From: Eubacterium sp.
Lineage (GTDB): Bacteria > Bacillota > Clostridia > Oscillospirales > Acutalibacteraceae
Direction: 5' to 3'
Assembly (NCBI GenBank): GCA_017446095.1
Contig: JAFSRN010000013.1
Location: 1 to 64,000 of the forward strand
DNA: 64,000 bases
The notes under the pieces are model-generated. The model had not been told where the DNA came from. It ran no database searches and was given only the letters and a program-made list of their open reading frames with translations. Positions 949 through 56,182 of this stretch are shown here, piece after piece. Position 1 is the first letter of the stretch; every line of letters begins with the position of its first letter. Made by a program: the position numbers and the translations under genes.

Positions 949-990
949 TCTTGCAATACAAATTGTTTTGAAGTATAATTAAATTTAGCA

Positions 991-1164
991 TTGAGTTTTG
1001 AGTTTTAAGTTTTAAGCTTGAGGTTACTCGCTGCGCTCGGACAATAATGTGGAGCGTCCGGGTGGCCGCTCCCTACGATTGTAGGGAATGGCGACCTCGA
1101 CATTCCATAATACAATGGGTGAGGGCGGAGCCCTCCCGAAATTCATAATTCATAATTCATAATT
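991..1164. repeat. Mosaic intergenic element: tandem words plus palindromic modules
   Basis: From left to right: tandem words of the GAGTTTTGAGTTTTAAG type (991-1023); CTCGCTGCGCTCGG; a palindromic module GGAGCGTCC...GGCCGCTCC ending in CTAC (1051-1076); GATT; the opposed module GTAGGGAATGG...CATTCC (1081-1106); a short hairpin GAGGGCGGAGCCCTC; and the tandem word ATTCATA repeated up to 1164. The same organisation, with different cores, recurs at 5049-5320, 3424-3603, 25211-25268 and 32626-32722. I see no coding function. Apart from the promoter at 920-948, it accounts for most of the 290-base gap before the epimerase gene. Confidence 0.8.
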
Positions 1165-1181
1165 AAAACAAGGTGATTACC

Positions 1182-2122: not shown

Positions 2123-3190
2123 ATGAAGAAATATAAAAGCATTACAGCCGTTCTTGCAGCCGTTTTGCTGCTTTGCTCGCTGATTGCGTGCAAGCAGGCG
2201 CCCAAGACGGAAAGCGTGACTCAGGCTGTTACAAACGAAAACGGTGAGGTTGTCACCAACGAGGGCGGCGAGGTAGTTACTGAGGAAATTGAGGCGGTGG
2301 TTGTTACGGACGCGAACGGTCAGCCTGTTACGGAAATTGTTACCGGCACCGACGGCAAAGCCGTTACAAAGGTGCAAGACGGCGAGTACGTTAACGTTAC
2401 GCAAAATGTTACAGAGCGCGTTAATGTGAACTCGGGCGGCGACAGCAACAACGCAAACGCAGGCAACAATAAAAAGTCAAACGGCGCAAAGAATAACAAA
2501 ACAACCGCAAAAGCCACAACCACCAAGAAGGGTGAAACCACCAAGAAGGGCGAAACCACTACAAAGGGCAAGGCTACCACAACCAAAAAGCCCACGGTTA
2601 AGCCTGCCGTGCCGAGCACGCCCACGGGCTTTAAGGCGAGCAAGGTTACAAAGGATTCGCTTCTGCTCTCGTGGAAGGGCGTTAAGTGCGACGGCTACGA
2701 GGTTCGCTACAGCGACAACGGCGAAACATTTGTAGAGCTTACAAAGAAAACGACTGCGACTCAGCTGCAGGTTGACGGACTTAAATCGTACACCAAGTAC
2801 ACCTTCAAGATAAGGGCGGTTAACGAGAAGAAGGGATACAAAAGTGTGTCGAAGTGGGCTATGACCACCGCGACCACGGAGGCTGAAAACAAGAACCAGA
2901 AGATTACCTTCAAAATCGTGCTGCCGATGAAGGGCAACGCCGAGGACACGCTGATTCTTTACGTCAGGGAAGAGGGCGATAAGGATTGGGATACCTACAC
3001 AAAGAAGGTTAACCTCGACGGCTCGACTGTTACAATCACCACGGACGAAAAGTACAAGGGTGTGTACGAGTTCAAGGCAAAGCTGAAAACAGCCGGCTCG
3101 GTTTACAGCGGCAAGTCGGATAAGGCAAAACCGCCTGCATTTTCAATGCCCGGCAACGAAATTGAAATAATGGAAGGCGAAGATGATTAA
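2123..3190 (+). CDS. Fibronectin type III lipoprotein with Thr/Lys-rich linker
   Basis: A 355-residue secreted lipoprotein. The N-terminus is a lipoprotein signal ending in LIAC, so Cys23 should be lipidated and the protein anchored on the outer face of the membrane. Residues about 35-100 are Val/Glu/Asn-rich with repeated NEGGEVVT-like phrases. Residues about 110-160 form a Thr/Lys-rich linker containing a repeated KKGETT unit, probably extended through the cell wall. Residues about 163-250 form one Fn3 domain (TPTGFKASKV, LLLSWKGV, GYEVRYS, YTFKIRAVN), followed by a second beta-rich domain that I do not recognise. No enzymatic motif is visible; binding or adhesion is an inference. An inverted-repeat element begins immediately after its TAA stop. 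Confidence 0.8.
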   Translation: MKKYKSITAVLAAVLLLCSLIACKQAPKTESVTQAVTNENGEVVTNEGGEVVTEEIEAVVVTDANGQPVTEIVTGTDGKAVTKVQDGEYVNVTQNVTERVNVNSGGDSNNANAGNNKKSNGAKNNKTTAKATTTKKGETTKKGETTTKGKATTTKKPTVKPAVPSTPTGFKASKVTKDSLLLSWKGVKCDGYEVRYSDNGETFVELTKKTTATQLQVDGLKSYTKYTFKIRAVNEKKGYKSVSKWAMTTATTEAENKNQKITFKIVLPMKGNAEDTLILYVREEGDKDWDTYTKKVNLDGSTVTITTDEKYKGVYEFKAKLKTAGSVYSGKSDKAKPPAFSMPGNEIEIMEGEDD

Positions 3191-3407
3191 GGGCGCCCTG
3201 CTTAAATAGTGTCAGCCCAAAAATGGCATCTTTTCCGCTATAACTGCATTAAAAATCACCGCAAGGCGACAGCCTTACGGTGATTTTGTGCTTTGTTCTA
3301 ACAAAAAATATGCTCATTTTTGGGTGCAAAGCAGTTTTGGCAAAGTGATTTTAGGAAAAAAGGACAAAGCCAAAACCAAAACCTAACACTATTTAAGCAG
3401 GGTGCCC
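3191..3407. mobile_element. 217-bp element with 22-bp terminal inverted repeats (MITE-like or structured RNA)
   Basis: Positions 3191-3212 and 3386-3407 are inverted repeats of 22 bases with one mismatch, which would be a G-T wobble in RNA. The element is bordered by TAA on both sides (3188-3190 and 3408-3410), as expected for a 3-bp target duplication. The left TAA is the stop codon of the lipoprotein gene. Inside are three further pairings: 3214-3228 with about 3311-3327, a hairpin at 3252-3287, and 3334-3341 with 3369-3376. No transposase is encoded. It could be a miniature transposable element or a folded transcript; the two are not exclusive. Confidence 0.6.
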
Positions 3408-3422
3408 TAAGGCACCCTTTTT
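3399..3422 (+). terminator. Rho-independent terminator after the Fn3 lipoprotein gene
   Basis: The stem is AGGGTGCC / GGCACCCT with loop CTAA and a run of T at 3418-3422. The left arm is shared with the right terminal repeat of the 217-bp element, so this hairpin and the long-range 22-bp pairing cannot form at the same time. Confidence 0.8.
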
Positions 3423-3423
3423 A

Positions 3424-3603
3424 GTTTGCGGTGTGCAGTGTGCAGTTTGTGGGTGGACTTCGTCCACACCTGTTTTATTGCGGGCTGTCGGGGACGCCAG
3501 CCCCTACGATTTGCGGGCTGTCGGGGACGCCAGCCCCTACGATTTGCGGGCTGTCGGGGACGCCAGCCCCTACGATTGTTCAATTGGGGACGCCAGCCCC
3601 TAC
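3424..3603. repeat. Mosaic element with three and a half tandem 33-bp units
   Basis: A tandem word (GTGTGCAGTGTGCAG) is followed by the hairpin GTGGACTTCGTCCAC and then by 33-bp units at 3480-3512, 3513-3545 and 3546-3578. A partial fourth unit keeps GGGGACGCCAGCCCCTAC (to 3603). Each unit is a palindromic module GGGCTGTCGGGGACGCCAGCCC plus CTACGATTTG. Open reading frames across it merely translate the repeat. With the 217-bp element and the promoter at 3642-3670, this fills the 511-base gene-free stretch before the methyltransferase gene. Confidence 0.85.
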
Positions 3604-3641
3604 ATAATTATAATTTATATATTAAAAATTATTACAATCGC

Positions 3642-3670
3642 TTGTCCTTTGACTTAATATATGGTATTAT
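3642..3670 (+). promoter_or_regulatory. Promoter of the rRNA methyltransferase gene
   Basis: TTGTCC and TATTAT are separated by 17 bases, ending about 31 bases before the start codon. Confidence 0.5.
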
Positions 3671-3701
3671 GTAATTTGGTTAATTCTGTGGCGGTAGTAA
3701 T

Positions 3702-5069
3702 ATGGATATCAAAAAGAACGACGATATACAACTGCATATTGACAATATGACGAGCGAGGGCTCGGCTGTCGGCCACTACGGCGGCATTGCCGTTTTTGTG
3801 CGCGGCGCTGTTACGGGCGACGATATTATTGCCCACATCATCAAAACCTCAAAGCGCTACGCAATCGGCATTGTTAAGGACATCATCACAAAGTCGCCCT
3901 GCAGGATAAAAAGCGACTGCGCGGTTTCTGCAAAGTGCGGCGGTTGCTCGTTCAGGAATATGACTTACGCCGAAGAACTGCGGTTTAAAAAGAGCAGAGT
4001 GGAGGACGCTGTAAAACGCATAGGGCATCTTGACACACCCGTGCGCGAGGTTATCGGCGCGGACAAAACAGACGGCTACCGCAACAAGGCGCAGTACCCC
4101 GTTGCAATCTGCGACGGCGAACTGATTGCAGGCTTTTACGCCTACAAGAGCCACCGCATTATCCCGTGCGACAACTGCAAACTGCAGCCGCCCGAATTTG
4201 CAGACTGCCTTGAAGCATTTGCAAAATGGGTTGAGGCGGCGGACGTGACGTCTTATGACGAAAAAAGCGGCAGGGGACTGCTGCGGCACATATATCTGCG
4301 CAAGACCTCGACGGGCGAGATTATGGCGTGCGCTGTTACAAACGGCAGCGACCTGCCGATGAGCGAGGTGCTGATTGATAACCTGAAACGCATCAGCGGC
4401 GTTAAGAGTATCTGCCAAAACGTCAACACCGCAAACAGCAACGTTATTCTCGGTGACGAAACCGCGGTGTTGTGGGGCAGCAAAACTGTTACGGACGTGC
4501 TTTGCGGCAAGAAGTTTGAGATTTCGCCTAACTCGTTTTACCAGGTTAACCACGACCAGTGCGAAAAGCTGTACGCCAAAGCCGCCGAGTGCGCAGGTTT
4601 AACGGGCAGCGAAACGCTTGTTGATATTTACTGCGGCGCGGGTACAATAGGGCTGACGATGGCGGACAGCGCAAAGCAGATTTTCGGCATAGAGATTGTG
4701 CCGCAGGCGGTTGAAAACGCACGGCGCAACGCAGAGATTAACGGCATCACGAACGCGGAGTATATCTGCGGCGACGCGCAGCACGGCGCGCTTGAGCTTG
4801 AAAAACGCGGCATTAAGGCGGATGTGGTTGTGCTTGACCCGCCGCGAAAGGGCTGCTCGCCCGACCTGCTCGATACGGTGTGCCGTATGCAGCCAAGGCG
4901 GATAGTCTACGTTTCCTGCGACACGGCAACGCTCGCGCGCGATTTGGAAATACTGGATGGAAAAGGGTACATCGCACAGGAAGTTACGCCGGTGGATATG
5001 TTTCCGAGAACGCCGCATGTGGAATCGGTTGCGTTGCTGCTTAATAAAGTTTTGAGTTTTGAGTGTTAA
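3702..5069 (+). CDS. rlmCD: 23S rRNA (uracil-5-)-methyltransferase, RumA/RlmCD family
   Basis: The 455-residue enzyme should methylate C5 of uridines in 23S rRNA using S-adenosylmethionine. Residues 1-60 form a TRAM RNA-binding domain. Cysteines in SDCAVSAKCGGCSF plus an upstream Cys (SPCRIKS) match the iron-sulfur cluster of this family. The Rossmann methyltransferase domain has DIYCGAGTIGL for cofactor binding, VLDPPRKGC, the catalytic YVSCDTATLARDL and a terminal VESVALL. The related TrmFO/TrmA activities are unlikely given the cluster. The last residues (LSFEC) are encoded inside the tandem-word edge of a mosaic repeat that starts at 5049, so the natural C-terminus may have been altered by insertion. 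The exact target base (U747, U1939 or both) cannot be told from sequence. Confidence 0.92.
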   Translation: MDIKKNDDIQLHIDNMTSEGSAVGHYGGIAVFVRGAVTGDDIIAHIIKTSKRYAIGIVKDIITKSPCRIKSDCAVSAKCGGCSFRNMTYAEELRFKKSRVEDAVKRIGHLDTPVREVIGADKTDGYRNKAQYPVAICDGELIAGFYAYKSHRIIPCDNCKLQPPEFADCLEAFAKWVEAADVTSYDEKSGRGLLRHIYLRKTSTGEIMACAVTNGSDLPMSEVLIDNLKRISGVKSICQNVNTANSNVILGDETAVLWGSKTVTDVLCGKKFEISPNSFYQVNHDQCEKLYAKAAECAGLTGSETLVDIYCGAGTIGLTMADSAKQIFGIEIVPQAVENARRNAEINGITNAEYICGDAQHGALELEKRGIKADVVVLDPPRKGCSPDLLDTVCRMQPRRIVYVSCDTATLARDLEILDGKGYIAQEVTPVDMFPRTPHVESVALLLNKVLSFEC

Positions 5070-5320
5070 GTGTTGAGCTTATGGTTACTCGCTACGCTCG
5101 GACAATAATGCGGAGCGTCCGGGTGGCCGCTCCCTACGATAAATGCACGACTTGTAGGGAATGGCTTGCTAGCGCAGACGCTCCCCTCTGTCACTTCGTG
5201 ACATCTCCCCGTTAATCGGGGAGTACCTCGACATTCCATAAAAAAAACAGGTGTGGACGGAGTCCACCCGAAAGCTTAAAACTTAAAACCTAAAACCTAA
5301 AGCTTAAAACCAATTACAAC
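5049..5320. repeat. Large mosaic element with nested insertion
   Basis: The left edge is the tandem word TTTTGAGTTTTGAGTGTTAAG and the right edge is its approximate inverse (AAGCTTAAAACTTAAAACC, to about 5312), so the whole element is bounded by inverted tandem words. Inside are the module GGAGCGTCC...GGCCGCTCCCTAC (as at 1051) and the GTAGGGAATGG...ACCTCGACATTCC module (as at 1081). Here the second module is interrupted by about 60 bases (5165-5224) that contain GTCACTTCGTGAC and CTCCCCGTTAATCGGGGAG. The hairpin GTGGACGGAGTCCAC then follows. It covers the gap between the methyltransferase and the C69 peptidase genes. Confidence 0.8.
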
Positions 5321-5338
5321 AAACAAGGAGATACAGAT

Positions 5339-7087
5339 ATGAAAAGGGGATTAAAGTACATTATTACAGCGATACTGGTTATTGTGTTTTCAACCGTCGG
5401 GGCGGCGCAGGCGTTTGCCTGCACGGCTTACTATGTTGGCTCAAAGGCGAGTGCGGACGGCACGGTTATTCTTGCCAAGTCCAACGACTTCCAGCACGTC
5501 TGGGCTAACCATCTTGAGATTACCGAGCGCGTTGAGAATGAGGAGGGCAGGACTATGCCTGTTGACCTTAAGGGTGCGGTGCAGACGGAGATTCCTGCTA
5601 CGACCTACCGCTATACCTCCACGCCGATTGACGACAGCGTTAAGTCTGCTAACGACTACGACGGCAGGGACGCGGCTATCTGCGCAAACGAGTACGGCGT
5701 GGTGATGATTATGTCCATCACGGCATTTTCCAACCACGACGCGGTTACCGCCGACCCGCTTGCCAAAAAAGGTCTTTGCGAGTTCACGGCGGTTGACCTT
5801 GTAACCTGCCAGAGCAAGACGGCAAAAGAGGGTGTTAAGAACCTTTTCAAACTCATAGATAAATACGGCTCGAGCGAGATTAACATCGCCTTTATCGCAG
5901 ACCAAAAGGAAGTATGGTACGTTGAGATGTACACAGGTCATCAGTACGCGGCGGTTAAGCTGCCGGACGACAAGGTGTGCGCTTTCGGCAACGAATTTCT
6001 GCTCGAATACCTGTCCGATTATGAGGACAGCATTACTTCCCCCGAGCTTGAGAGCCTTGCAAAGGAAAACGAGTTTGCGGTTTACGGCGACAACAACGAG
6101 CTGAACCTCGTTAAAACTTACTCGGGCGATTCGACCTTGACCGACTATTCGCACAGAAGAACGTGGATGGGTCACAAGCTGCTTGCGCCCGAGGATTACA
6201 AGGAGTACAACAAAGAGGACACTTATCCGCTTTGCTTTGAGGCGGAGGATAAGGTGTCGCTTCAGGACGTGATGGGCTTTATGCGCAACCGCTTTGAGGG
6301 CACGGAGTTCAACCCCGACAAAACGGGCAGAACGGACATCCGCGTAATCGGCACGGAGATTGCGATTAACGCCCACATCGCCCAGATTTACCCGAACTAC
6401 GAGGCGGATATGTCCTGCGTAACGTGGGCGAGCACGGGCCCTGCAATTTACGGCACGTTTGTTCCGTTTTCCAACGCGGCTACGAGCGTGAGCGAATCGT
6501 ACGGCAAAAATCAGGACGCAAAGGAATACGGCAAGTTTGACGTTGACTACCCGTACTACCGCTTTAAGGCGCTCACCACGCTGTGCTACGAGCAAAATAA
6601 CATCAAGACCTACGGCAAGCCCGTAAGGAATTACTGGAAGCAGGCGGAAGCAGGTATGACAAAGTGTATGCCTGCAGTGCTTGAAACCGCCGACGGACTC
6701 GGCGACAGCGAGGCGGCGCATCAGTACATAACTAACTACTGCAACGCAATGCAGGAACAGGCGTTTATTGACTCGGGCGTGCTGCTAAACGATGTTATGT
6801 GGTACATGAGCGAAAACAGCAACAGTATGAAAAACGGCAAGAACCCCGAAACTCACGAGGTGCTTGACGAGCTTAAAAAGGTTAAGCCGATGAAGGTTAA
6901 CCTTGACGCGGAAAATTACAGCAAGGTTCCCGAAATCAGCGAGGAAGAGGAAGAGCAGAGCAAATCAGGTATTGAGGCAAGGACGCTGCTTATCATAATC
7001 GCAGGCGTAATTGCAGGCCTGTCGCTGATTATAGCAATCATACTTATTGCGTATCTCAGGAAAACGAGGGCGCCCAAGCAGGATTAA
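5339..7087 (+). CDS. Membrane-anchored C69 family peptidase
   Basis: A 582-residue peptidase of family C69 (PepD-like dipeptidases, N-terminal nucleophile hydrolases). The signal sequence ends in AQAFA and is followed directly by Cys28 in CTAYYVG. Cleavage there would expose the Cys that serves as both nucleophile and N-terminus. Family segments include GTVILAKSND, NEYGVVMIMS, ITYG-like blocks, and RRTWMGHKLL. A single C-terminal membrane helix (about 551-574) is followed by a short basic tail, so the catalytic part faces outside. C69 enzymes are often cytoplasmic; the export signal plus anchor suggests breakdown of peptides at the cell surface. AAGGAG lies close upstream of the ATG. The substrate is unknown. 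Confidence 0.87.
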   Translation: MKRGLKYIITAILVIVFSTVGAAQAFACTAYYVGSKASADGTVILAKSNDFQHVWANHLEITERVENEEGRTMPVDLKGAVQTEIPATTYRYTSTPIDDSVKSANDYDGRDAAICANEYGVVMIMSITAFSNHDAVTADPLAKKGLCEFTAVDLVTCQSKTAKEGVKNLFKLIDKYGSSEINIAFIADQKEVWYVEMYTGHQYAAVKLPDDKVCAFGNEFLLEYLSDYEDSITSPELESLAKENEFAVYGDNNELNLVKTYSGDSTLTDYSHRRTWMGHKLLAPEDYKEYNKEDTYPLCFEAEDKVSLQDVMGFMRNRFEGTEFNPDKTGRTDIRVIGTEIAINAHIAQIYPNYEADMSCVTWASTGPAIYGTFVPFSNAATSVSESYGKNQDAKEYGKFDVDYPYYRFKALTTLCYEQNNIKTYGKPVRNYWKQAEAGMTKCMPAVLETADGLGDSEAAHQYITNYCNAMQEQAFIDSGVLLNDVMWYMSENSNSMKNGKNPETHEVLDELKKVKPMKVNLDAENYSKVPEISEEEEEQSKSGIEARTLLIIIAGVIAGLSLIIAIILIAYLRKTRAPKQD

Positions 7088-23795: not shown

Positions 23796-25214
23796 ATGAT
23801 AAAAGTTTCAAAGAACATAAAAAAGTTCCGCAAGCAGAGCGGTCTTACGCAGGAACAGCTTGCCGAACAGATGCACCTCACAAGGCAGGCGATCTCAAAC
23901 TGGGAAAACGATAAGTGCCAGCCTGATATTGAAAGTGTGGCAAGGCTTGCAGAGGTATTTGGTGTTTCCGTTGAGGAAATGATTTACGGCAGCCTGAAAA
24001 ATGTGGGCACAGAGGAGAATTCGGAAAGCAGAATCAACGTGATGAAAATCGTTCTCTCCGTTTTTGGCGGCCTGTTCTGCGCAGCGGGAATCATAATACT
24101 TTTTGTTGCGTTCTGGCAGGATTTTCCGTCGGTTTTTAAGGTTATATTATCGTTTTTGCCTGTTATGGTGGGCGCGGTTCTCGTTGTTTATATCAACGAA
24201 AACAAAAAAGAGAGCGTTGTCTGGCGCGAAATCGGCAGCATTGTGTGGTGCGTAGGCGTGTTTGCAAGCGTTTCGCTGTTTAACAGCAGCACAGAGCTTT
24301 TTGAATTTCACACAAGAATGCTTATCTGCTGCATATTGCTGATACCTGTTATGCTGATGTTCAGGTGCGTAAGCATTCTGCCCGTGTATTATCTGTTTCA
24401 GATTATTTTTGGCTGCGAGATTATAGATTCCGATCTTAACGTTTTTGTTCAGCTTGCTATAATACCGCTGTTTTTGGCAGGCGCAGCATACACGTTTTTT
24501 GTAATAAAAAAGGAGGGCGCCGACGCAAGATTCAGATTTGCCGTGTGGATAAGCGCGATTGCGCTTGTTGTCAACATTATAGTTTTGTGCGTTGGAACAG
24601 TCGAAATGCTTGTTTTGCCGAGCCTTATATTAGTAGCCGTTTCGCTTTGCGTAATCGGCGAAAGGCAAAAGGGCTACACCTTGCCGTTCAGAGTGCTCGG
24701 AAGCATCGGAATCTGCGTAGTGTCGCTGGTTTCTATATTATTTTACGACTTGGAATACGGCGAGTATTATAAAAATGATACATATGAAATATTTATGTTT
24801 ACTGTTCCTCTCGCTGCGGTTTTGCTTGCAGCCCTGAGCATTGCTTTTGTTCGTTCGGATATAAAGCTGAATTTAGCAGGCGGTATTCTTTATATTGCGT
24901 GCGGGGCAGGCATCGCAAACAGCCTGCTGTTCTCGTTTGACTTGGGTGTTTCATATGATAACAGTCCAATCATTGCACTTATAATTGCTGCAGTAATCGG
25001 TATATCGTTTGTGCTCAAGGGAATCAATAAACTATCGCTGTTTGAACTGAACGTAGGAATTATCACAGTGTTTATTGCCTTTATTATTCTCGTGTTCAAT
25101 GAGCTTGATTTTTCACTGTTTACGGTGGGCGGCTTGCTGATTCTTTTCGGCGCGTCGATGTTTTTTGCGAATTATCTTGTTTCAAAAAAGAAAAAAATCG
25201 CCGCCAAAAAGTAG
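23796..25214 (+). CDS. XRE-family regulator with polytopic membrane domain
   Basis: A 472-residue protein. Residues about 3-62 form a helix-turn-helix of the XRE/Cro type (KFRKQSGLTQEQLAEQM, TRQAISNWENDKCQPD). The rest, from about residue 80, contains roughly a dozen hydrophobic helices, so DNA binding is tethered to the membrane. AGGAGGAAT precedes the ATG. The signal sensed is unknown; membrane-bound XRE proteins often sense envelope conditions, an inference here. Its TAG stop lies in the constant GTAGGGG end of an inserted palindromic module. Confidence 0.8.
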   Translation: MIKVSKNIKKFRKQSGLTQEQLAEQMHLTRQAISNWENDKCQPDIESVARLAEVFGVSVEEMIYGSLKNVGTEENSESRINVMKIVLSVFGGLFCAAGIIILFVAFWQDFPSVFKVILSFLPVMVGAVLVVYINENKKESVVWREIGSIVWCVGVFASVSLFNSSTELFEFHTRMLICCILLIPVMLMFRCVSILPVYYLFQIIFGCEIIDSDLNVFVQLAIIPLFLAGAAYTFFVIKKEGADARFRFAVWISAIALVVNIIVLCVGTVEMLVLPSLILVAVSLCVIGERQKGYTLPFRVLGSIGICVVSLVSILFYDLEYGEYYKNDTYEIFMFTVPLAAVLLAALSIAFVRSDIKLNLAGGILYIACGAGIANSLLFSFDLGVSYDNSPIIALIIAAVIGISFVLKGINKLSLFELNVGIITVFIAFIILVFNELDFSLFTVGGLLILFGASMFFANYLVSKKKKIAAKK

Positions 25215-25268
25215 GGGCGATTCACGAATCGCCCGACAACTATCCACTGTTCACTGTCCACTGTCCAC
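25211..25268. repeat. Mosaic element: GTAGGGG module plus tandem words
   Basis: GTAGGGGCGATT, CACG and AATCGCCC form the palindromic module, followed by the tandem word CCACTGTTCACTGTCCACTG. The first TAG supplies the stop codon of the XRE gene. It has the same organisation as the copies at 991-1164 and 32626-32722. Confidence 0.75.
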
Positions 25269-25299
25269 TAAAAAAGGCTTCCGTCAGGAAGCCTTTTTT
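25269..25299. terminator. Bidirectional terminator between the XRE gene and prmA
   Basis: AAAAAAGGCTTCC, loop GTCA, GGAAGCCTTTTTT. The prmA stop codon (25284-25286) lies in the loop, and the left arm encodes its last residues. Confidence 0.85.
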
Positions 25300-32615: not shown

Positions 32616-32625
32616 GCAGCTTTCG

Positions 32626-32722
32626 GTGTTCAGTGTTCAGTGTTCAGTTTTCAGTTTTCAGTTATATGGTGAGCTTTGCTCACACTCATAAAAAACGGGC
32701 GGGTTGGGAAACCCGCCCCTAC
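32626..32722. repeat. Mosaic element: tandem words, short hairpin and GGGCGGGTT module
   Basis: Tandem words (GTTCAGTGTTCAG, TTTTCAGTTTTCAG) are followed by the hairpin GTGAGCTTTGCTCAC and the module GGGCGGGTT, GGGA, AACCCGCCCCTAC. This is the same order as at 3424-3603, with different cores. Confidence 0.8.
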
Positions 32723-32725
32723 TAA

Positions 32726-34672
32726 TCAGAAGCAATCTATTACGTTTGAGTCTTTGCGGACAAAGGCAATGAACTCGTCGATTTCAGCCGTTACGTTGTG
32801 CCATCCGGCAGCGTACGGCTTTTTGTTTTTTGTAAGAATCCACTCGCCCTCGGGCAGGTAAACTCGTTTTTCGGTCTGCCCCTCGTTCACAATCGGGGCA
32901 AAGATTATATCGTCGCCGAAGATGTACTGCTCGCCGAGCGAGTAGCAAACCTCGTCGTCGGGGTAGTCAAAGAACATCGGGCGCATAACGGGGATTCCCG
33001 TTTTTGCTGCCTTTGCCATTTCCTTTTCAATGTACGGGCGAAGGCGCTCGCGCAGTAAAATGAGGTCTTTTAGTATGCCGTAGTTGCGCTCGCCGAAGCC
33101 CCAGATTTCGTTCGGGTCGCCGGACGGTTCTTTAACGTCGCGCTTCTTTTCGCCGTGGCGGTATCTGTTGCCGTGCACGCGCATAACGGGGCAGAAAACG
33201 CCGTACTGGAACCAGCGCACAATCAGCTCGCGGAACATATCGCTCTGCGTGTCGCCGTCGTAGAAGCCGCCGATGTCGGTGTTCCACCACGGTACGCCGC
33301 ACATCGACATATTAAGCCCTGCCTTTACCTGCTGCGACAGGCTCTCAAACGTGGAGATTACGTCGCCGCTCCACACAAGCGCGCCGTATTTCTGGCTGCC
33401 GAGGTACGCGCAGCGTGTGAGTGTAACGGGCTCGTCGTCGCTGATTTTTTTAAATCCCTCGTACGCCATCTGCGTGTAGTAGTAGGGGAAAATCAGCCCC
33501 ACCTCGTCGCCCCTGCCTGCGTGCAGCAGCAGGTTGTCAAAGTGCTCGGGGTGGATTTCCGGCTCGGCTTCGTCAAACCACAAGCCGTCAACGCCCTGTT
33601 CGAGATAATTCTCTTTTAGTTTGGCGAAAACGAACTCGCGCGTTTTGGGGTTGGTGGCGTCGATTTCCGCCTGCCAGCCGTAAAACGGGAACACTCTGTC
33701 CGAGCCCTTTGCGGTGCGGATAAGCATATTGTTATCGCGCATATGCCAATAGTTTTCCGACTTTTCGTTTATCGTAGGCCACACGGACACAACGAGCTTT
33801 GTGCCCATTTCGTGCAGCTCTTTTGTCATTGCAGGCACGTCGTGCCAGTACTGCGGGTCAAACTTGTAGTCGCCCTGTTCCGTCCAGTGGAAGTAGTCGC
33901 AGATAATAACGGAAAGCGGTATGCCCTCGTCGCGGTAGCGCCTTGCAACCTCGAGCAAATCCTCCTGCGTTTCGTAGCGAAGGCGGCTCTGCCAGAAGCC
34001 CGTTGCCCAGTGCGGCATAACAGGAGCGTGACCTGTGAGGTCTGCAAGCGTGCCGCTTACCTCGGCAGGGTTGCCGGCGATAACAACGTAGTCGATTTTA
34101 TGCGTTGCGCCCACACTCCAGCGCGTGCGGTTGTTTGACAGCTCAACGCTGCCGATTGCAGGATTGTTCCACAAAAAGCCGTAGCCGCGCGACGAATACA
34201 CAAACGGAATTGTGCATTTTGTGTTGAGGTGGCGCAAATCAAACGAGCAGCCCTTTAGGTCAAACATACCCGACGGCTCGTGACCGAGTCCGTAAAAATG
34301 CTCGCCCTCGTTTGCCTTGAACGTCACGCGCGCCGACCATCTGCTGCCGTTTGTTTCGTAGTGGCGGTAGCCGTCGTTAAAAGTCATCTCGGGCTGTTCC
34401 TCAAGCACAGGTTTGCCGTTGCTGTAAACGGTGACCTTGCCGTTTTGCTCAAGCTGAATTTTTACCTTGCCCACGGTCATAAAAACGCAGTAGCCCTTAT
34501 CCTCAATCACGCAGTCTGCGTCCTGCGGCATAAGGGTATAGTTTTCGCTGTCGGGCTTGCAGTCGCAAAACGCTTCAAAGCGCACAGCGTTTTCGTGGCA
34601 GGGGGTGATTCGCACCAATTCGCCTGCGCGGGAAAACAAAATTTCTTTGCCGTTTATTTCGGTATTCCTCAT
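32726..34672 (-). CDS. Glycoside hydrolase family 31 protein
   Basis: A 648-residue alpha-glycosidase. The N-terminal half is the beta-sandwich (FKANEGEHFYGLGHE), then the barrel with RYRDEGIPLSVIICDYFHW, the nucleophile region GLWFDEAEPE (Asp), and the acid/base region ALVWSGDVISTFESL. VPWWNTDIGGFYDGD completes the site. There is no signal peptide, so it is intracellular. It may be an alpha-xylosidase or alpha-glucosidase; the F/W pattern resembles YicI-type xylosidases, but this cannot be decided from sequence alone. It is divergent from the MFS transporter gene and may share its substrate. Confidence 0.9.
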   Translation of the reverse strand: MRNTEINGKEILFSRAGELVRITPCHENAVRFEAFCDCKPDSENYTLMPQDADCVIEDKGYCVFMTVGKVKIQLEQNGKVTVYSNGKPVLEEQPEMTFNDGYRHYETNGSRWSARVTFKANEGEHFYGLGHEPSGMFDLKGCSFDLRHLNTKCTIPFVYSSRGYGFLWNNPAIGSVELSNNRTRWSVGATHKIDYVVIAGNPAEVSGTLADLTGHAPVMPHWATGFWQSRLRYETQEDLLEVARRYRDEGIPLSVIICDYFHWTEQGDYKFDPQYWHDVPAMTKELHEMGTKLVVSVWPTINEKSENYWHMRDNNMLIRTAKGSDRVFPFYGWQAEIDATNPKTREFVFAKLKENYLEQGVDGLWFDEAEPEIHPEHFDNLLLHAGRGDEVGLIFPYYYTQMAYEGFKKISDDEPVTLTRCAYLGSQKYGALVWSGDVISTFESLSQQVKAGLNMSMCGVPWWNTDIGGFYDGDTQSDMFRELIVRWFQYGVFCPVMRVHGNRYRHGEKKRDVKEPSGDPNEIWGFGERNYGILKDLILLRERLRPYIEKEMAKAAKTGIPVMRPMFFDYPDDEVCYSLGEQYIFGDDIIFAPIVNEGQTEKRVYLPEGEWILTKNKKPYAAGWHNVTAEIDEFIAFVRKDSNVIDCF

Positions 34673-42480: not shown

Positions 42481-42526
42481 AAACTGAAAACCGAACACTG
42501 AACACCGAACACCGAACTCTGAACAC
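42481..42526. repeat. Tandem word repeat
   Basis: The word GAACACCGAAC is repeated with small changes (CCGAACACTGAACACCGAAC and on), the same class of words that border the mosaic elements. Confidence 0.7.
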
Positions 42527-46924: not shown

Positions 46925-47247
46925 AATCCCCGTGTCAAACGGGGATTCCAGCGTGTCGAAAAATCCAAGAAACAAATTCGACACGCTGTGAGGATGAACG
47001 AAAAAGATGCAGAATCCCGTTTTCTTGCGAACTTTGCTGTACGACGGTACCGCTTGTGAGCAAAAAACGAGAAACGCCAAAACCCGCAGGAACTCAATGT
47101 TTCTGCGGGTTTTCATAGATGTTTTTTATCAGGTGCTTCGCACGCGGAGCGTCGGGGTCGCCGCTCCCTACTATTTCTCCTAAATAGTATTTCGGCGTGG
47201 TTATGCACTTTTTCGACAGCCTCAAATCCCCACGTCAAGTGGGGATT
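46925..47247. repeat. Gene-free repeat region with two matched hairpins 300 bp apart
   Basis: This gap (46831-47250, 420 bases) contains no gene. Two 23-base hairpins lie exactly 300 bases apart: AATCCCCGT-GTCAA-ACGGGGATT (46925-46947) and AATCCCCAC-GTCAA-GTGGGGATT (47225-47247). They have the same loop and compensatory changes in the stem. Between are an inverted repeat CAGCGTGTCGAA / TTCGACACGCTG (46949-46988), a terminator-like hairpin AAAACCCGCAG / CTGCGGGTTTT (47079-47113), a GGAGCGTC...GCTCCCTAC palindromic module (47144-47171) as at 1051, and ACTATTT-CTCCT-AAATAGT (47170-47188). The second hairpin ends the ktrA side. Confidence 0.75.
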
Positions 47248-56150: not shown

Positions 56151-56182
56151 AATTATGAATTATGAGTTATGAATTATAATTC
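56151..56182. repeat. Tandem word repeat before apbE
   Basis: ATTATGAATTATGAGTTATG and on, the same word type as at 1140-1164. It occupies the rnfB-apbE gap. Confidence 0.7.

Follow-up and report, generated by a model that had tools for sequence, protein, structure and literature searches.

Six intergenic gaps in the 64-kb stretch of DNA analysed here (the window, at the start of contig C7 in a genome of 2.09 Mb and 22 contigs) raise the question of what kind of element has constant ends and a core that differs from copy to copy. An earlier note on this DNA had described a shared design in the gaps at 991-1164, 3424-3603, 5049-5320, 25211-25268, 32626-32722 and 47144-47171, in which tandem words border short hairpins and palindromes that end in GTAGGGG or CCCCTAC, and the sequences and coordinates are as it claimed. 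When the window is scanned for GTAG tags that precede a hairpin, nine intact GTAGGG hairpins come up, all nine within these gaps (Table 1). The constant end is GTAGGG and not GTAGGGG, since four of the nine have three Gs only, and it consists of a GTAG tag with two or three G-C pairs. Each hairpin comprises this tag and a stem of 8-9 bp, with an unpaired stem position in many, and the hairpins are arranged singly, in tandem or as head-to-head pairs. GTAGGGG and CCCCTAC together occur eight times in the window, compared to 1.8 times on average in 30 order-2 Markov sequences. Tandem words and short hairpins accompany them as described: of the nine heptamer arrays listed in the window seven lie in the gaps, as do five of six triloop hairpins. 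By these sequence features, the modules are REP elements of the GTAG superfamily, a known mobile type that would presumably be mobile here too.

Table 1. Repeat features of the window with their positions.
Feature	Position	Strand	Source
Heptamer array, TTTTGAG type	990..1023		window scan
REP GTAGGGAGCGGCCACCCGGACGCTCC, stem mismatch type	1051..1076	-	hairpin scan
REP GTAGGGAATGGCGACCTCGACATTCC, same type as the split REP at 5154 but uninterrupted	1081..1106	+	hairpin scan
Triloop hairpin GAGGGCGGAGCCCTC	1121..1135		window scan
Heptamer array, ATTCATA	1137..1169		window scan
219-bp unit, MITE-like	3190..3408		
Heptamer array, GTGTGCA	3424..3452		window scan
Triloop hairpin GTGGACTTCGTCCAC	3453..3467		window scan
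REP GTAGGGGCTGGCGTCCCCGACAGCCC, unit 1 of three tandem 33-bp units	3482..3507	-	hairpin scan
REP GTAGGGGCTGGCGTCCCCGACAGCCC, tandem unit 2	3515..3540	-	hairpin scan
REP GTAGGGGCTGGCGTCCCCGACAGCCC, tandem unit 3; a shortened fourth unit ends at 3603	3548..3573	-	hairpin scan
Heptamer array holding the stop codon of ORF 3702-5069	5047..5077		window scan
REP identical to 1051-1076 (GTAGGGAGCGGCCACCCGGACGCTCC)	5112..5137	-	hairpin scan
REP of the 1081 type, loop split by a 64-bp hairpin-rich insert (5166-5229)	5154..5238, end read by eye	+	
Triloop hairpin GTGGACGGAGTCCAC	5253..5267		window scan
Heptamer array	5271..5310		window scan
REP GTAGGGGCGATTCACGAATCGCCC	25211..25234	+	hairpin scan
Heptamer array, CCACTGT	25243..25272		window scan
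Heptamer array, GTTCAGT	32621..32668		window scan
Triloop hairpin GTGAGCTTTGCTCAC	32669..32683		window scan
REP GTAGGGGCGGGTTTCCCAACCCGCCC	32697..32722	-	hairpin scan
Heptamer array	42490..42526		window
REP GTAGGGAGCGGCGACCCCGACGCTCC, identical to both REPs within the C12 RAYT gene	47146..47171	-	hairpin scan
Heptamer array	56151..56181		window

GTAGGG-type REP hairpins recur throughout a 464-kb sample (the window plus 400 kb of this genome), which contains 111 of them, 93 in intergenic DNA that makes up 61 of the 464 kb. A hairpin follows GTAG in 88 of 2290 cases in this sample, compared to a median tetramer rate of 1.0%; TAGG, which represents these hairpins in a reading shifted by one base, scores higher (47 of 1019), and CTAA (35 of 1040) comes near the GTAG rate. 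Core classes in the sample include the CGATTC, TCAATC, TTTCCC-loop, GGCGTCCCC-loop, TGACCACA and GACGAGC types. Genome-wide, GTAGGGG..CCCCTAC is found at 19 places and GTAGGG..CCCTAC at 39, with zero for the reversed control in both cases. Tight head-to-head REP pairs with their GTAG ends outward account for 35 of these 39 places; 26 of the 35 have a CCGCGG junction, with about 2 nt between the partners, and most combine two different cores. In none of the 35 pairs do the two partners share their 9-nt core, compared to 3.0 such pairs expected (P 0.028), which is suggestive of a deficit. Identical partners separated by a 2-nt spacer would make a long perfect palindrome that may be lost or collapse, which could explain their absence, and at two places the commonest core forms a collapsed palindrome of 28 nt that has GTAG at either end. 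A depletion of same-family pairs was also considered and rejected (4 versus 6.3 expected, P 0.21; families were assigned by a crude classifier made by hand, which mislabelled some rows). The tight-pair architecture is not general among the 16 genomes searched: such pairs are numerous only in G000 (39, control 0) and G153 (20, control 0), and counts in the other 14 range from 0 to 6, sometimes under the reversed control, which is as high as the tight-pair count or higher in G098, G066, G014, G186 and G071.

Related genomes have shorter gaps at two of these positions. The genes at 2123 and 3702 are adjacent in six genus relatives, with a gap of about 50-155 bp compared to 511 bp in the window (3191-3701), and the genes at 3702 and 5339 lie about 90 bp apart in one relative (L171) compared to 269 bp in the window (5070-5338). 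No GTAGGG hairpin was found in the short gaps of these seven relatives. These short, hairpin-free gaps partly support the empty sites that the earlier note had envisaged between strains; they belong to different species (about 66-76% DNA identity), so insertion borders are unreadable. Downstream of orthologues of gene 32726-34672, no GTAGGG hairpin was found in 13 relatives, and this comparison is weak as an empty site for the 32626 gap because the orthologues have different neighbour genes.

A nuclease or transposase gene with a linked copy was also anticipated. A protein search reveals no transposase within the 64-kb window, but three RAYT-type HuH nuclease genes occur elsewhere in this genome, on contigs C22, C12 and C20, and each holds an inverted REP pair in its reading frame, facing outward. 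A Pfam model alone detects just one of the three. The C22 protein, the sole protein tested against NF047646 (REP_Tyr_transpos), scores 64.3 bits, which is below the curated cut-off of 80 bits, and scores 25.7 bits against Pfam Y1_Tnp, above the cut-off of 23. A profile of 34 relatives has its best match in E. coli TnpArep (4er8; E 3.8e-12), the closest solved structure, and the HxH and Y residues are invariant in the 34 aligned RAYT proteins. The closest named relatives of these nucleases come from Clostridia and Oscillospiraceae metagenome genomes, which suggests that the host is probably a clostridium of gut type. In the C12 gene, both internal copies are GTAGGGAGCGGCGACCCCGACGCTCC, letter-for-letter equal to the window REP at 47146-47171; in the C20 gene, one internal copy equals a dispersed REP of the genome. 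Internal REPs are therefore identical to dispersed copies in two of the three genes. In the C22 gene, the two copies are exact reverse complements of each other, and no exact dispersed copy of this pair is found in the 464-kb sample, where both listed copies are those of the gene itself; the window REP at 32697-32722 shares the loop and inner stem of the C22 pair and has a different outer core. No flanking GTAGGG hairpin was found within about 1.2 kb of the three genes. The reading of the gaps as a family with constant ends and swappable self-complementary cores is supported, and its members correspond to hairpin pairs carried by transposase-type nuclease genes elsewhere in this genome.

This internal pair is widespread among related genes. 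Relatives were collected by a protein search of 200 family genomes, which gave matches in 57, and from a named genome collection (80 loci). The resulting set comprises 64 genes, which are the 69 RAYT loci above 100 bits minus L042, L052, L070 and L104, which lack a single open frame (three of these four show a pair), and minus the duplicate L068. An inverted internal pair is present in 47 of the 64 distinct genes, and the count varies with the criterion used (49/65, 47/64, 45/62 and 48/64). According to the detector, eight of the 64 genes have no internal REP and eight have one, and the first site appears empty by eye in the alignment for L071 and L083. The two copies are identical in 20 of the 47 pairs (10,000 shuffles gave a mean of 0.83 and a maximum of 7) and equal in length in 46 (mean 18.9, maximum 32). 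Their places are fixed relative to the HuH motif: site 1 lies 107-155 nt before it in 46 of 50 copies, and site 2 lies 33-67 nt after it, between HuH and the catalytic tyrosine, in 52 of 53 copies, in an analysis that left out 27 of 129 loci for which no motif pattern was found. In 54 of 56 plus-strand copies, the GTAG tag lies in frame 0 and translates as Val-Gly. Among weaker matches, mostly from other phyla, both sites are occupied in 3 of 40, one in 11 and none in 26. A REP also occurs near the gene in 18 of the 64 relatives, 15 of which have an internal REP as well, so that mutual exclusion of internal and flanking REPs is not found (p 0.68); in five of 13 genes that have both, the flanking REP is identical to the internal one (0.18 at random). 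REP-pair spacing alone failed to predict a RAYT gene in the single case tried, a pair in G045 that does not lie in a RAYT.

The internal REPs are conserved as DNA, even at synonymous codons, in gene pairs that share a core. Such genes are 50-63% identical outside their REPs and 96-100% identical inside. For example, L147 and L149, which carry C12-type cores and belong to different genera, are 63% identical outside the REPs and 98% inside, and codons for the same residue are identical in 42 of 86 cases outside and 17 of 18 inside (Fisher p 0.0004). Six further comparisons, which are mutually non-independent and involve four genes with another core, give 23-41 of 60-91 identical codons outside and 15-17 of 16-17 inside. 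In an alignment of 30 internal 26-nt REPs (of 35 distinct; five were left out), stem positions pair at 91.5% of cells compared to 70.6% after shuffling, a fraction biased by the choice of sequences with a hairpin detector. The covariation score is 0.549 compared to 0.145 for shuffles, with all slid controls far lower, and pair 7 is unpaired in 16 of the 30. Two of five covariation measures are no higher than in shuffles: pairs changed on both sides number 6 versus 4.5 (46 of 500 shuffles are as high), and pair types number 14 versus 13.8, with no excess. Both internal cores also differ jointly between sister genes. L041 and L067 are 70% identical outside their REPs, and both of their REP cores differ (46% identity). 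Sister groups in which both internal copies differ together are L041/L067 (support 88), L043/L150 (support 98, starred) and L060 versus L063/L154/L159 (support 86), on a quick tree that was built without REP-encoded residues and has 39 of 61 inner branches weakly supported.

Dispersed cores can be followed across the 200 family genomes. The GTAGGGAGCGGCGACCCCGACGCTCC core occurs in two of them, G000 (24 copies) and G098 (11 copies), which are the only genomes in which a RAYT with this core was found, and two of the copies in each are the pair inside that gene. GTAGGGCGGGGGCTTGCTCCCGCC occurs in 22 of the 200 genomes; a RAYT match is present in 16 of these 22 compared to 41 of the other 178 (p 6e-6), and a RAYT with the GTAGGGCGGGGGCTTGCTCCCGCC core inside is seen in seven (G034, G064, G126, G150, G153, G159 and G171), with six of the 22 having no RAYT match at all. 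A third core examined is found in three genomes, with a RAYT carrying that pair in G079 only. Orphan cores are common. GTAGGGACGAGCATTGCTCGTCC has 17 copies in G098 and two in G000 without a matching RAYT. This genome's commonest REP (CGATTC type) is likewise an orphan; for GTAGGGGCGATTCACGAATCGCCC, the REP sequence seen most often in the 464-kb sample (14 copies among those listed), no matching RAYT was found in this genome. Such orphans contradict a one-to-one correspondence of REP core and RAYT, which is rejected.

The reading we favour, at a probability of roughly 70% and on sequence grounds, is that the window REPs are non-autonomous elements handled in trans by RAYTs encoded elsewhere in the genome, each of which would read the tag plus its own core and carry its recognition hairpins within its gene. 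The RAYT (TnpA_REP), a HuH-tyrosine nuclease, would recognise the GTAG tag and its hairpin core in single-stranded DNA and would cut and rejoin at its hairpin, with binding and cutting as in E. coli TnpA_REP, and dispersed REP copies could stem from such cutting and joining. The recognition hairpin would be kept inside the nuclease gene as two in-frame, outward-facing copies, one before HuH and one between HuH and the tyrosine. This pair may be retained for nuclease binding, either as a seed linked to the gene or as a site of autoregulation, and would persist if the enzyme acts on it or if copying keeps renewing it. Core diversity in tight pairs may be maintained since identical pairs would form long palindromes. 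A further step is proposed tentatively, at somewhat below even odds: the RAYT gene may be self-addressed, with a coding sequence that holds two master copies of the DNA site of its own protein, and specificity and REP populations would switch together when both copies are replaced in concert.

Other explanations of the internal hairpins need to be weighed against this handling in trans by RAYTs that carry their own sites. Internal REPs could be neutral insertions in surface loops that have no role for the nuclease gene and are kept alike by the copying or conversion that spreads REPs. The encoded peptides vary widely and are rich in Gly, Pro and Asp, homogenising copying could explain matching cores, REPs are reported within unrelated genes (PMC3733652), and such insertions read as peripheral and of little effect on the protein in the available text of PMC6006769; two fixed places relative to HuH, opposite orientation, one shared frame and stem covariation nevertheless exceed what random tolerated hits would leave, and we regard neutrality as doubtful. 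The hairpins could instead control translation or stability of the RAYT mRNA, possibly when bound by RAYT, with the match to DNA REPs as a by-product. This is improbable: both copies follow the same core, which a generic mRNA hairpin would not need, and the GTAG tag is conserved outside the stem (the detector required GTAG), although the hairpins do lie in the sense transcript, are conserved at the nucleotide level and covary. Selection on the encoded loop peptides, for example as loops that touch DNA, with the hairpin as a by-product, would leave synonymous sites free. In seven same-core comparisons, however, 15-17 of 16-18 same-residue codons are identical inside REPs compared to 35-55% outside, which makes peptide selection very improbable even though both insertions are in frame and the peptide starts with Val-Gly in the 26 copies at site 1 that are 26 nt long. 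That the hairpins are simply intrinsic terminators of neighbouring genes, which the earlier note had listed as part of what would undo its proposal, has a negligible probability; the hairpins follow genes, several between converging ORFs, but a T-run (6 of 8) occurs on either side of only 10 of 111 REPs, and terminators would not be expected to carry a constant GTAG tag, to form head-to-head pairs with different cores or to lie within genes.

Much of this organisation has precedents. GTAG REPs, REP dimers and REPs inside genes have been described (PMC3733652), and the repeats reported here resemble that superfamily, as far as the available text shows, in the GTAG at the hairpin foot, palindromes of 20-40 bp, a mostly intergenic location, dimers with GTAG outside, several families per genome, provision of stop codons and some copies inside genes. 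That text does not mention Firmicutes or Clostridia, and its dimers differ from the tight pairs of different cores described here, which meet at a short CCGCGG junction and have cores that match RAYT-internal pairs. REPINs, in the accessible part of PMC3116915, are likewise units of two inverted REPs with GTAG ends outward and a link to RAYTs, but their doublets pair REPs of one group across spacers of about 71 or 110 bp, whereas most of the 35 tight pairs here join different cores about 2 nt apart. E. coli TnpA_REP (4er8) binds and cuts single-stranded GTAG hairpins, with recognition by tag, bulge and loop (PMC8266576, available text); its BIMEs share with the window mosaics of different REP types, a GTAG tag and a mid-stem mismatch. 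REPs flank the gene in E. coli, unlike the three RAYTs of this genome, which with their internal pairs do not form classical REPtrons (a RAYT flanked by cognate REPs). The nearest parallel is tnpA_REP subclass 2.4, in which REPs lie inside the gene, in frame and generally between HuH and Y (PMC6006769). Likenesses in the portion of that source available include an unbroken frame, NH[IFV]H and WQ motifs and a scattered distribution across phyla. Most genes here add a second, inverted copy before HuH, and their HuH-Y spacing of 57-82 residues (62 genes with motifs) is not enlarged like the median of 88 in subclass 2.4; matching cores and concerted change are not mentioned in that portion. We know of no description, in the open-access literature searched, of REPs paired at two fixed sites within the gene, of cores that change together or of their correspondence to dispersed REPs; to that extent these features are new.

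RAYT recognition of a REP family and REP/RAYT co-evolution are usually inferred from neighbourhood. Here, cores lie inside the genes of the presumed reader enzymes, so that one reading frame links each core to its enzyme, and the 39 distinct site-1 sequences among the 47 pairs are a ready natural series for study of a recognition code. These genes also provide an example of DNA-level selection inside coding sequence, and the GTAGGG-bounded intergenic mosaics of these bacteria gain a plain reading. If the genes are indeed self-addressed, each would be not a gene that bears neutral insertions but a heritable and portable pairing of nuclease and address tag. Two individual loci depart from the usual layout. 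In L166 (G149 contig C16, 15000-30000), about 11 kb separate the matches to the two RAYT ends, and each piece contains one REP, with similar cores in the two; a large insert has apparently split this RAYT gene. In L163 (G199 contig C83), site 1 encodes a repeated DDPGAPSS in the alignment, as if the internal REP had multiplied in tandem and in frame.

The proposal of a mobile or recombining family is partly supported for the REPs, whose cores match RAYT-internal pairs and which may be mobile, but the mosaics themselves are not one element. Distinct kinds of repeat share these gaps, namely REPs, heptamer arrays, triloop hairpins, the 219-bp MITE-like unit and the 64-bp insert, and a single mobile element as their source is ruled out because the modules recombine independently. 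In the 464-kb sample, a REP is found within 150 nt for 27 of the 63 heptamer arrays in intergenic DNA, compared to 11.5 on average and 21 at most in 300 random draws. Among the 36 intergenic triloop hairpins, 25 have a heptamer array within the same distance (4.9 at random, at most 14) and 17 are near a REP (6.4 at random, at most 15). A structured RNA family was rejected as an explanation, as no Rfam match in the window reaches gathering level and none appears at E up to 1 in 3100-5400; the 219-bp unit is likewise without a match. This unit has 26-nt terminal inverted repeats (92%), copies elsewhere in the genome that are 93-98% identical, several at contig ends, and diverged copies in genus relatives. 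The 64-bp insert sits in the loop of the REP at 5154, compared to its uninterrupted counterpart at 1081 in the same genome, and the copies listed from other species in the genus show 87-100% identity, including two at 100%, which suggests recent spread. Triloop hairpins have C-TTC/TTT/TCC-G type loops and swappable 6-bp stems and constitute a second family with a constant loop and variable stem. The heptamer arrays of the window differ widely in sequence, and a period of 7 is strongly preferred in this genome, with 74 arrays (65 intergenic) compared to 8, 13, 0 and 1 for periods 5, 6, 8 and 9. Heptamer direct repeats such as TAACTGA are described from Beggiatoaceae, Cyanobacteria and Bacteroidetes in the available text of PMC4679880; they too are intergenic and tandem, and the array at 32621-32668 reads as a TAACTGA/AAACTGA/ACACTGA series on the other strand. 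Unlike those repeats, the arrays reported here involve many different heptamers and cluster with REPs and triloop hairpins.
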